The notes under the pieces: generated by a model
What the model was told of the DNA's origin: nothing
Seen by the model: only the letters and a program-made list of their open reading frames with translations
Databases searched by the model: none
Assembly: GCA_016936595.1 (NCBI GenBank)
Contig: JAFGXO010000020.1
Span: 1 to 35,954 of the forward strand
DNA length: 35,954 nt
Source of the DNA: Bacteroidales bacterium
GTDB lineage: Bacteria; Bacteroidota; Bacteroidia; Bacteroidales; JAFGUD01
Reading direction: 5' to 3'
Shown: positions 3,069-35,954 of the stretch, piece by piece
Numbering within the stretch: the first letter of the stretch is position 1
Layout: every line of letters begins with the position of its first letter
Made by a program: the position numbers and the translations under genes

Positions 3069-5335
3069 TATAATTTTAGCCCAATAACTAAAACATCGTC
3101 TATTTGTTTATTTTCACCTTTCCAATTTATAAATTCTTCTTCTAATATTTGCTTTTGCTCGTCTAATGTTTTTTTGTAAATAGATATGAATAACTCTTTT
3201 AAATTTCTGCTGTAATATTTTCTATATTCGATGTGTCCAAATTGATCATGAAATCCGTCTGTTAACATAACTATTTCATCTCCTTTGGTTAATTGAATGG
3301 TTTGTTTTGAAAAATCTTTTTCGATAAAATAATTTCCAATTGGTTGTTTATCAGGTATTATGTGAAATAATTTTTCTTGATTGGTTTCAATGTTTTTCTT
3401 TTCGTTGGTGTTAATAAAATTTTCGGGTGTGTTTTTTCTGATAATATACATAGGATTATTTGCTCCTGAAAATTCTAAAATTTTAGTGTCTAAATTTAAT
3501 GAGCAGAAGGTCATATCCATACCATCTTGAAGTTCAGACATATCAGCATTTTGTTTTAGTGCAGTTTTTAGTTGTTTTCTGAATATATCCAAAACAATGT
3601 TTGTTGAATTTATTTCATTTTTTCTAACAATTTCATTTAGTAACGAAATGCCCAGCATACTAACAAAAGCTCCTGGAACTCCATGTCCGGTGCAATCGGC
3701 TACAGCAAAAAGCAAAATGTTGTTAATTTTAGTGGTCCAATAAAAATCGCCCGAAACAATATTTTTGGGTTTGTAAAAAATAAAGTGTTCAGCAAAATTA
3801 TTAACAAACATTTTTTCAGCAGGCAAAAGAGCTTGCTGTATTCTTCGGGCATAAATTATACTGTTTGTTATGTCTTGATTTTGTTTTTCTATTTTATTGT
3901 TTTTTGCGGAAATTTCCAAAAATGCTTTTTCTAAAACCTCCGATTGTGTTTGCAATTCTTCTTTTTGCTGATTTATTTCGTGGTTAATTTCTTGTAAATT
4001 TTCTGTTTGAACTCTTAATTCTTCCTTTTGTTGTTCTATTTTGGCTGTTCGTTGTTCTACTTTTTCTTCTAAATTTTTATTGGCATCGTTTAATTCTTTT
4101 GTGAGATTTTTATTGGCGGCAAACAACCTTGAAAATCTTAGCGATATTGTAAATGATTGTAAAAACACAAATGTAAAAGTTCCAAGTGAAAGTAAGTAAA
4201 TGGATTTTATTAATAATGCGTCTAACAAAATATCGTTTACTGCCGTGCCTATAAAAATAACGAGGGCTAATGCAGAGAAAAATGCTCCCTCTTCTTTTTT
4301 AAAGGCTGCAATTGTAATACCAACAAGTAAATACAGTAATGATATTACCGCCGAGAGTTGAAAATACATCATTATATGTGAAAATATTTTAACTGGTGTA
4401 AAGATGGTAATAACAGAAAAAATGAGCTGAATAATTACTAAACCCGAAATAATTTTTTTATTAAAATGTTTTTTGAATACATTGTAAATGAACAATGTAA
4501 AAGAAAACATTGCAGTAAAATACGATAAAAAGAGAATATTTACAGAAATTTTCCAACTAATCCACGAAAAAACTTTTCCAAATAATATGTCGCCATAAAA
4601 AAATGTTACTATTGCTATGTTTATACTAAATATTGCAAAAAGTAAAGATGCTTTATCTTCTTTTCTGAGTATAAATATACCAAAATGATACAAAGCAACT
4701 ATCAGTAGTACTCCTATTAAAAATACGTTAAAATAATTAACCTTGTTTGAACTTTGAGTAACTGTTTTAACATTTCCAAGCATTATTGAACCTGATGTTC
4801 CTATTTTTTTGTGATGAAAATTAGAGATTTGTAAAATTATTTCCAATTCGTTTGTATCACAAAAAAATATTACATTATCTCTTTCCCAAGAGGGTAAGCT
4901 TGTTTCTTTTGACATACCCGGCACTCCTACTTGTTTAACTAAATTTCCGTTAACAAATAATTTGTATGCGGTTTCAACTCTGCCTATTCGTAAGGAAAGT
5001 ATTTCTTTTTTGTTATCTATTTTTACATTTAATTTGAGTGTGGCAAATCCATCGCTAACTATCTTGAAACTATCAATTTGCATTTTATTCCATAACGAAG
5101 GTATTTTAACGTAATGTGTTGGTTCTATGTTTTGATTTTTAAAATCTTCAGGTGAATAAAATTTGTCCCAATAAAATTCCCATTCGCCTCGTAAATCAAC
5201 ATTGCCCTGTTTGTCAAAATCCCAGTTTGATAAATCTATATAGCCTTTTTCTGCCGGATTTTTTTTCTCAACCGGTGAGCAAGAAAAAAACAAAATGGCA
5301 ACTAAAAAAAATATTATAAAATTTTTTCCTTTCAT
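3068..5335 (-). CDS. 7TM-DISM-type membrane sensor with C-terminal SpoIIE/PP2C-like phosphatase domain
   Basis: Lipobox FFSCSP; extracellular GEWEFYWDKFYSPEDF region; seven or so TM helices; long coiled coil; VADCTGHGVPGAFVSMLG, SGANNPMYIIR, MLTDGFHDQFG, QIDDVLVIGLKL. Confidence 0.9.
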   Translation of the reverse strand: MKGKNFIIFFLVAILFFSCSPVEKKNPAEKGYIDLSNWDFDKQGNVDLRGEWEFYWDKFYSPEDFKNQNIEPTHYVKIPSLWNKMQIDSFKIVSDGFATLKLNVKIDNKKEILSLRIGRVETAYKLFVNGNLVKQVGVPGMSKETSLPSWERDNVIFFCDTNELEIILQISNFHHKKIGTSGSIMLGNVKTVTQSSNKVNYFNVFLIGVLLIVALYHFGIFILRKEDKASLLFAIFSINIAIVTFFYGDILFGKVFSWISWKISVNILFLSYFTAMFSFTLFIYNVFKKHFNKKIISGLVIIQLIFSVITIFTPVKIFSHIMMYFQLSAVISLLYLLVGITIAAFKKEEGAFFSALALVIFIGTAVNDILLDALLIKSIYLLSLGTFTFVFLQSFTISLRFSRLFAANKNLTKELNDANKNLEEKVEQRTAKIEQQKEELRVQTENLQEINHEINQQKEELQTQSEVLEKAFLEISAKNNKIEKQNQDITNSIIYARRIQQALLPAEKMFVNNFAEHFIFYKPKNIVSGDFYWTTKINNILLFAVADCTGHGVPGAFVSMLGISLLNEIVRKNEINSTNIVLDIFRKQLKTALKQNADMSELQDGMDMTFCSLNLDTKILEFSGANNPMYIIRKNTPENFINTNEKKNIETNQEKLFHIIPDKQPIGNYFIEKDFSKQTIQLTKGDEIVMLTDGFHDQFGHIEYRKYYSRNLKELFISIYKKTLDEQKQILEEEFINWKGENKQIDDVLVIGLKL

Positions 5336-13167: not shown

Positions 13168-13486
13168 TAGTATGTAAAAATTTTGTTTAAATTTATAACA
13201 ACATTTTTTATTAAATATTATAATATTTTTAAGTGTTTAAATAACAGGCTTTTACTTATAAACTATTTACACTTGTAAATTTTATTTTATACAAAAAGCA
13301 AACTGTACTTTACATTGTTAACTGTTGATTTTTGTAATTTTTATTTTACTATTTGTAAAATAAACATTAAATTTACAATAAAGCACCTTATATATATATA
13401 GTTTTATTTTTTAATCATGCCCTTAAATAAACAACTTTTTTTTAAAAAAAATATTTTATCTTTACACAAACTCAAATATTTATAGT

Positions 13487-14971
13487 ATGAAAAAAATCGT
13501 TTCACTTTTTGCTATTGTGGCAATTCTTTTAATCAATTTTTCTTCGTGTAAAGAAAAAGATACTGATGACACTGATATTACTTTGCCTGATGGATTTAGT
13601 TCATCGTCGATAACTACAGGATTTAGCCTTACTTATGGTGGGTCAGGAAATAACGATGATGAATTAGTTTCGGGAATGGTAGCCGATAATTCCGGCAATA
13701 TGTACATAACAATGAACATAACCGACGCAGCTGCAAATAAAGATATTATTGTTGTTAAGGTTAATGCAGATGGAACTTTAGGTTGGGCTCAACGGTATAA
13801 TAATAATGGAAATAATGATTGGTCGCCTGATTCAGGCGAAAATTCCGAAACCGGAGGAACAGCAAATTCTATTTCTATTGATACTGAAGGAAATGTTTAC
13901 GTAATTGGAACAACTACCGAAGATAATGCCAGCGAAAGTACTATTGTTCTTAAAATTTCGCACATTGATGGTAGTATAATTTGGCAAAAAATGTGGAAAG
14001 AACAATGGCCAACCGGAACTCCTACTGCTTCACAAAGTAACCAAGGATACGGTTTAGATGCAGAATCTGATTATGTTTATGTAACTGGTGCAACCGGAAC
14101 AAATAAAGTAATAGTTGTTGCTCTTAACAAAGCAGACGGAACAATTTTTTATCAATATACTTTAGATATTGTTAATGGAACTAAAGATAGAGGATATGTT
14201 GTTAAACAATCTCCTACAGGTGATTTATTTATTGGCGGAGTAACCGGTAGTTACGCTTATATTGCTAAAATTAATGGAGGCAACACAAGTTCACCAACTC
14301 TTGCTTGGGTTAAAAATGCCGGCTTATCTTACGCCGCAAGAATTAACGGAATTGATATTGACGCTTCGGGTGTTTATTTGTCGTGTGATATTCGCGGGGT
14401 TCAAACATATTTTGAGGCAATGAAGCTTGATTTTGATGGAAATTTTCAGTGGGCTAAAACTTTTCAAGGTGCCGATGCAGATAGAAACAATACTCACGTT
14501 GTTAAAATTGACGGCAATTTTTTATACGTTGGTGGAAGAATTGGAGAGTCCGGATTAGATACATATTATGGTGATGGACTTTTATTAAAAATGGATAAGG
14601 CTAACGGTGATTTGAATTGGGCTAAGATTTATTATACCGGTAACAGTAGCGAAGAAGCTGCTGAACATAGAATAAAAGGTATTGCTATTAATGGAGCAAA
14701 TATTCTTGTTGCCGGACAAGTATATGGATCTAATGATAATGTTGACCATTTTTTGGGCGAATGGATTGAAAACTCCGCATTAACTTTACAAAATGTAACA
14801 AATTCGTTAACTAATGTTAGTTCTGCAACTTTTGAACAAGTTAATAATGGCGAAGTTAGAGATGGAGTAGGTGAAATGTCGGCGGATACCGGAATATTAC
14901 AAAATGCAAAAGACAAAACAACTTTATCGCCTCCCGATGGTGATGCTTTTATGATGAAATTTAACTTGTAA
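13487..14971 (+). CDS. Surface lipoprotein with SBBP/PQQ-like beta-propeller repeats
   Basis: Lipobox …LLINFSSCKEKD with acidic residues after Cys; repeated SISIDTEGNVYVIGTT…, KADGTIFYQ, MDKANGDLNWAK-type blades. Confidence 0.7.
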   Translation: MKKIVSLFAIVAILLINFSSCKEKDTDDTDITLPDGFSSSSITTGFSLTYGGSGNNDDELVSGMVADNSGNMYITMNITDAAANKDIIVVKVNADGTLGWAQRYNNNGNNDWSPDSGENSETGGTANSISIDTEGNVYVIGTTTEDNASESTIVLKISHIDGSIIWQKMWKEQWPTGTPTASQSNQGYGLDAESDYVYVTGATGTNKVIVVALNKADGTIFYQYTLDIVNGTKDRGYVVKQSPTGDLFIGGVTGSYAYIAKINGGNTSSPTLAWVKNAGLSYAARINGIDIDASGVYLSCDIRGVQTYFEAMKLDFDGNFQWAKTFQGADADRNNTHVVKIDGNFLYVGGRIGESGLDTYYGDGLLLKMDKANGDLNWAKIYYTGNSSEEAAEHRIKGIAINGANILVAGQVYGSNDNVDHFLGEWIENSALTLQNVTNSLTNVSSATFEQVNNGEVRDGVGEMSADTGILQNAKDKTTLSPPDGDAFMMKFNL

Positions 14972-15164: not shown

Positions 15165-17807
15165 ATGTTTGAAAATCCCCAAAATAAAGAACTCTTAGAC
15201 GAAATATCTCGCCTAAAAAATGAAAATTTACTTCTTAAAGAAAAAATTATTTCAGATACAAAATCTCAAGAATTAATTTTATTTAAAAATGCTTTTTATT
15301 CTTCCAAAAATTTAATTGCTTTGGTTGATAAAAATTACCGGTTATTAGCTGTAAATGATGCTTATGTTAATTTTCATAAAAAAAACAGAAATCAAATAAT
15401 TGGTAGTAAGCTTGAAAATGTAGTAGGAAGCATTAGTTTTAAAAAAGTAAAAGAAAAAATTGATAAATGTTTGTTGGGGCAAACAATTGAATTTGAAGAT
15501 TGGTTTGAAGAAAAATCATTTGGGCGAAAGTAAGTTAATGTGGTATATACTCCTTTTGTTGAAAATGATAAAGAAAATGGAGTATTGATTACCGTTGCCG
15601 ATATCACACAAAAAAAACAATCAGAAATAGACTTAAAAGAAAGCGAAAAAAAACATAAAACATTAGTAAAATCACTCAACGAAGGGTTATGGCAAATAGA
15701 TAGCAAAGGGAAAACAGTTTTTGCAAATTCCATTTTGGAAAAAATGTTTGGCTATTCAAAAAATGAAATGAAAGGGAGATTATTTTTAGATTTCATGGAA
15801 AAAAAATACAGAAGGGAAGCCCAAAAATTATTTGAAAAAAGAGAAAATGGAATTTCTGAAAAACACACTTTTGATTTTTTGAAAAAAGATGGTTCAAAAA
15901 TAACAGTTTATCTTAGTACATCTCCTTTATTTGATGAAAATAATAATTTTAAAGGGGCTTTAGCGTTGGTAAAAGATATTACCGAAATAAATTTGGCTCA
16001 AAAATCATTAAAAGAAAGTGAAGAAAGATATAAAAGCTTGTTTTATAATAATAAAACAGTAAATTTGCTTATTAATCCCGAAACAAAAAAAATTGTTGAT
16101 GCAAATAATGCCGCGTTGGAGTTTTATGGCTACTCTAAAAATGAAATGTTAAAATTAAGAATAACTGATATTAATATTCTTGAAACAGATGAAATTAAAA
16201 AGTTGATGCAAATATCTGTTGAAGAAAAACAAAATGTTTTTGAATTTAAGCACAAACTAGCTAACGGGCAAATAAAAGAAGTAAACGTATATTCAGGAAA
16301 TATTGTTTTTAGTAATCAAACATTAGTTTATTCTATTATTATTGATGTTTCTGAAAAGAAAAAAGCAGAAAAAAGACTTAAAGAAAGCGAGGAAAGATAT
16401 AAAACAGTTGTGTCAAATTTACCGCTTGTAACTTTTGTAATCAATAAAAATGGATTTTTTGAATTTTCTGAAGGAATGGGACTTTCAAAATTAGATTTAA
16501 AACCCGGTCAGGTAGTAGGATTATCGGCTTATGATTTATATAAAGATTATCCTGATGTTATTTTAGCCATAAAAAATTCGTTTAAAGGACAAGCCCTAAA
16601 ACATGTGGTAAATATAAGAGGTGTAATATTTGATGTTTTTTATAATCCTTTAGCTAACAAAAATGGAAAAGTAACTAAAATAATTGGAGTTGCAAATGAT
16701 ATAACAGAGAGTAAAAAAATAGAATAAGAACTAAGAGAAAGTGAATCTAAATTCAGATTATTAGTAAAAAATCAAGGCGAAGGAGTTGTAATAACTGACA
16801 AAAATGAAAATTTTATATTTGCAAATCCTGCAGCCGAGGAAATATTTGGTTTACAAAAAGGTGAAATTATCGGTAAAAATATTATTTCATTTATTTCAAC
16901 TGAAGAGGTAGAAAATATAAAACAAAAAAATCTTATTAGTAAAAAAAATAATTTCGAACTTCAAATAATTAATAATATTGGCAAGAAAATTAATTTATTA
17001 ATTACAAGTACTCCTTTTGATGATAATATTGCCGGAATTCACGGAACTTTAGCAATTTTTAGAGACATAACTGAAATAAAAAATCAAGAAACAAAGCTAA
17101 AAGAGCTTTTGTCAACCAAAAACAGATTTTTTAATATTATAGCTCACGATTTACGAAGTCCTTTTAACGCTTTATTAGGTTTTTCGGAGCTTTTGTATTT
17201 AAATTATGATAGTTTTACGGGAGATAAAATTCAAATGATGACAAAAGCTATGTACGATACATCTAAATCTGCCTTTAAATTAGTCGAAAATTTATTAACT
17301 TGGTCACGTTCTCAATCAGGAAAATTAAAATTTGAGCCAACTTTTTGCTCTTTAAATACTATTATTGACAATCCCATAAGCGGGGTTGACTTAATGGCGA
17401 AAAATAAAAATATTAATATTAAAAAAACAATTACCGAAAATGTTAATGTTTGTGTTGATAAAAACTTGATTTATACTGTTTTAAGAAATTTAATTTCAAA
17501 TGCAGTAAAATTTACTAAGCCTAATGGGGAAATTAAAATAGATACAAAGATTATAGATGAATTTGTTGAAATTTCGGTTTCAGATACAGGTGTTGGTATT
17601 GAAAAATCAAGAGTAGGGGATTTGTTTAAAATTGATGCAGCAAACTCTACTGAAGGAACAGAAAATGAAGCTGGTACGGGTTTAGGTCTTATTCTTTGCA
17701 AAGAATTTATTGAAAAACACGGTGGTGAAATATGGGTAGAAAGTGAATTGAATAAAGGCTCAACTTTTTATTTTACAATTCCGTTGGCTGAAAAAAGTTC
17801 GCAATAA
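15165..17807 (+). pseudogene. Multi-PAS sensor histidine kinase interrupted by two in-frame TAA codons (15531-15533, 16725-16727)
   Basis: ORFs 15165-15533, 15540-16727 and 17109-17807 share one frame; 16728-17108 is also open in that frame and encodes a PAS domain. About five PAS domains, then HDLRSPFNALLGFSELL (H-box), NLISNAVKFT (N-box), DTGVGI (G1), GTGLGL (G2). Confidence 0.85.
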
Positions 17808-35008: not shown

Positions 35009-35752
35009 ATGAAAAAAACAGTATTTACAACTTTATTTGTTTTGCTTGCAGCAATGTTGTTTGCACAACAAAATTCATCATTAACATGGTTTGGCTTAGG
35101 ACTAAAGGGTGGTTATGGAACTTCTTTTTTGTTTAATAAAGCATCTGTTGACGATGCAAAAGTAACTTACGCTTATTATTCCCCTTCTTACTTTTTTGGA
35201 GGAGATTTTGGTTTGGTTTTTGGCGATTATATTGGCGTATCTGTTGAATATACTTTTAATAATTTTTCGCAGGCTTACGATGTGCAAGGTGCCGAAAATT
35301 TTAAAAGAATAATTTCTTGTAAATCAAACGATTTAGGTTTCTTACTTAATCTTCAGGCTGAAACTGGTTTTTACTTTGATATTGGTCCAAAATTTTCGAC
35401 ATTAAAAACGGCTATGCTTTCTACAACAAGCAGTGTTGGAACTATAGAAATGGATAGAACTAACAAATTTAGACCTGAATTTTCAAGTATTGTTTTGGGT
35501 GTAGGATTAAAACCTTTGATAACACAATCTTTTGAAATAAAAATAGGTGTACGTGGTGTTTATACTTTTTCGAATATTGTGAATACACCAGGTTACATTA
35601 TTGCTGCCGATGATAATGTTTTGTATATGCCAAATTATTCCGAAGAAAAAACAAATCCTATTCAGTTGATGTTAACTACAGAGTTTACTTTAGTTTTTGG
35701 GAAATTTGGAAAAGCAAGGTGTGGAAAAAACCGCTTTATGTTTAATTTTTAA
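35009..35752 (+). CDS. Outer-membrane beta-barrel protein
   Basis: Signal peptide MKKTVFTTLFVLLAAMLFAQ; alternating beta-strand pattern (GLGLKGGYGTSFLF, YIGVSVEYTFNNFSQAYD, FEIKIGVRGVYTFSNI). Confidence 0.7.
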   Translation: MKKTVFTTLFVLLAAMLFAQQNSSLTWFGLGLKGGYGTSFLFNKASVDDAKVTYAYYSPSYFFGGDFGLVFGDYIGVSVEYTFNNFSQAYDVQGAENFKRIISCKSNDLGFLLNLQAETGFYFDIGPKFSTLKTAMLSTTSSVGTIEMDRTNKFRPEFSSIVLGVGLKPLITQSFEIKIGVRGVYTFSNIVNTPGYIIAADDNVLYMPNYSEEKTNPIQLMLTTEFTLVFGKFGKARCGKNRFMFNF

Positions 35753-35769
35753 TAATTTGATTTGATTAA

Positions 35770-35954
35770 GTTTAAATAGTGATGAAATGGAATTTTCTAT
35801 AGAAGACCTGATGGAGTAGCACAAACTCCTGTTACGGTTGCAAGTTTCAATCCTTGTTGTAATGGAATTTTCTTTAGAAGATTTGCGAAATAGACGAAGA
35901 ATACTTTAATAATGGCTGTTTCAATCCTTGTTGTAATGGAATTTTCTTTAGAAG
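35770..35954 (-). CRISPR. Leader-distal (trailer) end of a CRISPR array with 37-bp repeats; array continues past the window
   Basis: Two identical repeats GTTTCAATCCTTGTTGTAATGGAATTTTCTTTAGAAG at 35844-35880 and 35918-35954; degenerate 36-nt repeat at 35770-35805; spacers 35806-35843 (38 nt) and 35881-35917 (37 nt). The reverse complement ends in ATTGAAAC, the usual 3' end of type I/III repeats, so the predicted transcript is on minus. Confidence 0.93.

Follow-up and report, generated by a model that had tools for sequence, protein, structure and literature searches.

The window, the whole stretch of 35,954 nucleotides that was analysed, is an entire contig (C221) of a draft genome comprising 241 contigs (3.34 Mb, 85% complete). 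Its last 186 bases form part of a CRISPR array. Two perfect 37-bp repeats with spacers of 38 and 37 nt had been noted in a preliminary description made from the letters alone, and both repeats are found at 35844-35880 and 35918-35954. A third repeat, degenerate and uncounted in that description, precedes them. The features at this end of the window are as follows.

35009..35752, plus strand: outer-membrane beta-barrel gene, flanking and outside the CRISPR locus
35769..35805, minus strand: degenerate terminal (trailer-end) repeat, 27/37 identical, decayed in the half encoding the 5' handle
35806..35843, minus strand: spacer of 38 nt, the oldest; 22-nt core without exact match in viral_contigs
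35844..35880, minus strand: perfect CRISPR repeat
35881..35917, minus strand: spacer of 37 nt; 22-nt core without exact match in viral_contigs
35918..35954, minus strand: perfect CRISPR repeat whose final base is the contig end; CTTCTAAAGAAAATTCCATTACAACAAGGATTGAAAC in the crRNA sense

On the minus strand the perfect repeat ends in ATTGAAAC, as first described. In dinucleotide shuffles the expected number of matches to this repeat, allowing up to three mismatches, is 0.00. The degenerate copy agrees with it at 27 of 37 positions, compared with 23 of 37 for the next best position in the window when both strands are compared; its GTTTCAATCC... half has decayed while the ATGGAATTTTCT...AGAAG half is kept. 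Decay of one half of the repeat is usual at the trailer end of an array, and the degeneracy of this outermost copy thus marks the window as the trailer side.

No cas genes were detected by PADLOC among 26 open reading frames spread over the entire window. The same scan gave a partial match, covering the C-terminal half, between window positions 17109-17807 and the candidate defence family PDC-M43B (E=9.2e-11).

A search of the whole genome for the exact repeat returned a single further place, positions 6-190 of contig C75 (11,688 bp), where three copies lie on the same strand as those in the window. Together the two contigs carry five perfect repeats and one degenerate copy, with spacers of 38, 37, 37 and 37 nt. 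This fits the definition of a CRISPR array, which calls for three or more near-identical repeats separated by unique spacers of comparable length. Beyond the last repeat on C75 lies a leader of about 190 bp, with the motif TTCTTTGACGTACTGA between the array and cas4, and then a cas operon encoded entirely on the minus strand in the order cas4-cas2-cas1-cas6-(PDC-M21B, PDC-M21A)-cas3-cas5b-cas7b-cas8b-HTH regulator.

C75 383-955, minus strand: cas4
C75 1100-1390, minus strand: cas2
C75 1387-2463, minus strand: cas1
C75 2473-3132, minus strand: cas6b
C75 3210-3902, minus strand: PDC-M21B (PADLOC)
C75 3895-4446, minus strand: PDC-M21A (PADLOC)
C75 4498-6915, minus strand: cas3
C75 6912-7673, minus strand: cas5b
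C75 7663-8592, minus strand: cas7b/csh2
C75 8615-10480, minus strand: cas8b/TM1802
C75 10620-11576, minus strand: HTH regulator (Pfam)

The encoded proteins were identified as Cas4b, Cas2b, Cas1b, Cas6b, Cas3b, Cas5b, Cas7/Csh2 and Cas8b/TM1802. The large subunit matches Pfam Cas_TM1802 with 287.9 bits (cut-off 25.1) and the PADLOC Cas8b model with E=1.4e-79, although the NCBIfam TM1802 and Csh1 models score slightly below their cut-offs. Cas7/Csh2 and Cas5b (Cas5h) are recognized by TIGR02590 (244.6 bits, cut-off 171.55) and TIGR02592 (125.6 bits, cut-off 97), respectively, and Cas3 has both HD and helicase domains, with TIGR01596 and TIGR01587 above their cut-offs. Cas6, Cas1, Cas2 and Cas4, which a type I-B assignment also calls for, are all present. 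We read the terminal regulator as a member of the WYL type; the Pfam match covers its HTH part only. The locus is thus a known kind of bacterial CRISPR immune system, and of the two types proposed from the repeat end, I or III, type I is the one borne out by a complete type I-B operon carrying the same repeat.

The window has a trailer but no leader, C75 has a leader but no trailer, and their orientations agree, such that one broken array is the simplest reading. We consider it highly probable (roughly 92%) that the window holds the trailer, or oldest, end of the array of this complete type I-B locus, broken in assembly, and that C75 holds the leader side and the cas operon. On C75 the array is linked directly to the operon, while for the window half we infer it across a physical join that no read or contig spans. 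The preliminary description had placed transcription on the minus strand and had put the leader and any cas operon beyond the right edge; both are found on C75 in the predicted orientation, subject to that same join. Its statement that the flank has no cas genes holds for the reading frames scanned, but their seeming absence is an effect of the contig break and not of biology, because the assembly broke inside the repeats. No cas1 or cas2 lies to the left of the array, an arrangement that the same description had named as one that would count against it, and the total of repeats is well clear of the other such outcome, fewer than three copies. To label the window's repeats an orphan array would therefore be wrong, since searching the genome for the same repeat recovered a complete type I-B system.

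Synteny was considered as proof of the join and was set aside. In G001, a sister species, the gene that follows the outer-membrane protein gene corresponds to window positions 13460-14965, and in G002, of the same genus, the contig with the outer-membrane protein gene ends without a repeat. In two genomes of the same genus, the repeat was looked for beside the homologue of the outer-membrane protein gene and not found.

Other CRISPR-related loci are present in the genome. Two further Cas1 loci, on C37 and C143, each adjoin a protein with a BT4734-like N-terminal domain, supported by a Pfam match for the C37 copy and by resemblance judged by eye for the C143 copy. C37 also has a Cas2-like reading frame and an array with the repeat GTCAAAGAATAACTACCAATACAATAAGGATTAAGAC, and C143 encodes a CARF-sigma54 activator (RtcR_PspF2). 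Short tandem repeat tracts (ATTCACTATGCACTA-like and GCGAGTTGCCAGTT-like) occur near both extra cas1 genes (L066:1148-1519 on C143 and L067:2849-3173 on C37). A second, more distant Cas6b homologue lies on a short contig (G000:C183:462-1112, L121).

Genomes often contain several arrays for one cas operon, and the ends of the two contigs lack a physical join, so the window might instead hold a second, cas-less array of the same repeat that relies in trans on the type I-B proteins of C75. We regard this as very unlikely: the window misses only the leader end and C75 only the trailer end, their orientations are compatible, and with only five perfect repeats genome-wide a single array is the simplest account. 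It is more improbable by far that the window array belongs to one of the other Cas1 loci. The genome does have those two additional Cas1 genes, but the array on C37 is built from a different repeat, and the window's repeat is absent from both C37 and C143. Finally, the window by itself displays just two perfect copies, as might be seen for a short tandem or interspersed repeat unrelated to CRISPR. That interpretation is barely tenable, given that on C75 the identical repeat adjoins a leader followed by the complete cas operon and that homologous arrays occupy the same place in two related loci (L069 and L071).

If a single array was split in assembly, its working would probably follow the established type I-B pathway. 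The array would be transcribed in the minus-strand sense, starting at the C75 leader and running towards window position 35769, and Cas6b would cut within the repeats to leave an 8-nt ATTGAAAC 5' handle. Cas8b, Cas7b and Cas5b would then assemble on the crRNA as Cascade, with matched DNA presumably degraded by Cas3, and new spacers would enter at the leader end through Cas1, Cas2 and Cas4. The cores of the four spacers (20-22 nt) have no exact match in viral_contigs, nor does the repeat itself. For uncultured phages, exact matches of 20-22 nt are frequently missing from collections, and the null result for the spacers therefore says little.

Scanning species genomes with Cas3 revealed four loci at 70-73% identity, in Bacteroidales or Mariniphaga metagenome-assembled genomes. 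Two Bacteroidales type I-B loci, L069 (CSMAG_2501) and L071 (GMC9.metabat2.98), each on one contig, share the order cas8-7-5-3-6-1-2-4-leader-array with ours, and their proteins are 60-80% identical to those of C75. Like the window's repeat, theirs are 37 nt long and end in AAGGATTGAAAC, with 8 and 6 mismatches to ours, respectively, and their repeat-to-repeat spacing is likewise mostly 72-76 nt. A locus in G018, from the same order as the window's genome (L108), gave matches identical to those of L071. The leader motif TTCTTTGAC[AG]T[AG][CT]TGA is common to C75, L069, L071 and the same-genus locus L111 (G002, contig C521), and the motif TTCTTTGACGTACTGA recurs in L111 and, in variant form, in L069 and L071. 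At L111 a contig edge coincides with a repeat beside cas4, the same kind of assembly break as at the window. The window's repeat itself (29-nt core, up to three mismatches) was found in none of 40 relatives.

These loci differ at the junction between cas3 and cas6. In a small sample of seven distinct loci whose cas3 genes are closely related, the junction is empty (6-21 bp) in L069, L106 and L110; it is filled by the PDC-M21 pair on C75, an AlbA_2/Schlafen-HTH protein in L071, an AAA_14/DUF4143 ATPase in L072 and an IS200-type transposase in L112. Moreover, cas4, cas2, cas1 and cas6 of the same-genus locus in G002 are 66-88% identical to ours, compared with about 30% for cas3, cas5 and cas7. 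Such closeness on one side of the junction together with divergent type I-B effectors on the other indicates that effector modules have also been exchanged there within the genus.

The candidate defence pair that fills the junction on C75 (L006, positions 3210-4446) was recognized by PADLOC with E=5.5e-49 for PDC-M21A and 7.8e-60 for PDC-M21B; weak matches relate B to AbiEii and A to an HTH regulator model. No homologues of our type I-B cas genes were found in the fetched flanks of 20 members of the order that carry the pair, and its place in the C75 operon thus looks like an insertion. A perfect 24-bp palindrome, ATTTGCAATTCGCGAATTGCAAAT (L006:4439-4462), lies directly upstream of the likely M21A start, and 15 of the 20 other loci have its 20-bp core (up to four mismatches) ahead of M21A. 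The palindrome is a predicted operator, as expected of a pair that regulates itself.

It is conceivable, though we think it unlikely, that the cas3-cas6 junction of Bacteroidales type I-B loci acts as a landing slot for accessory genes, occupied here by a self-regulated, nucleotidyltransferase toxin-antitoxin-like PDC-M21A/B module. If this were true, the pair could penalize loss of the CRISPR locus or serve as a back-up defence. The junction, with its differing genes among relatives, is a possible place to seek accessory defence genes linked to CRISPR.

A precedent for such nesting is CreTA, an RNA toxin-antitoxin module found within type I-B loci (PMC8501985, PMC12737573), whose copy in H. 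hispanica sits between cas6 and cas8 (PMC8501985). A CreA-like degenerate repeat was sought beside the M21 genes and none was found, the best match to the repeat outside the array on C75 (21/37) being at background; control of the pair by Cascade is therefore not indicated. PDC-M21A/B thus resembles CreTA as a toxin-antitoxin-like module inside a type I-B cas locus, but it consists of two proteins and has a palindrome of its own upstream, whereas CreTA is an RNA module.
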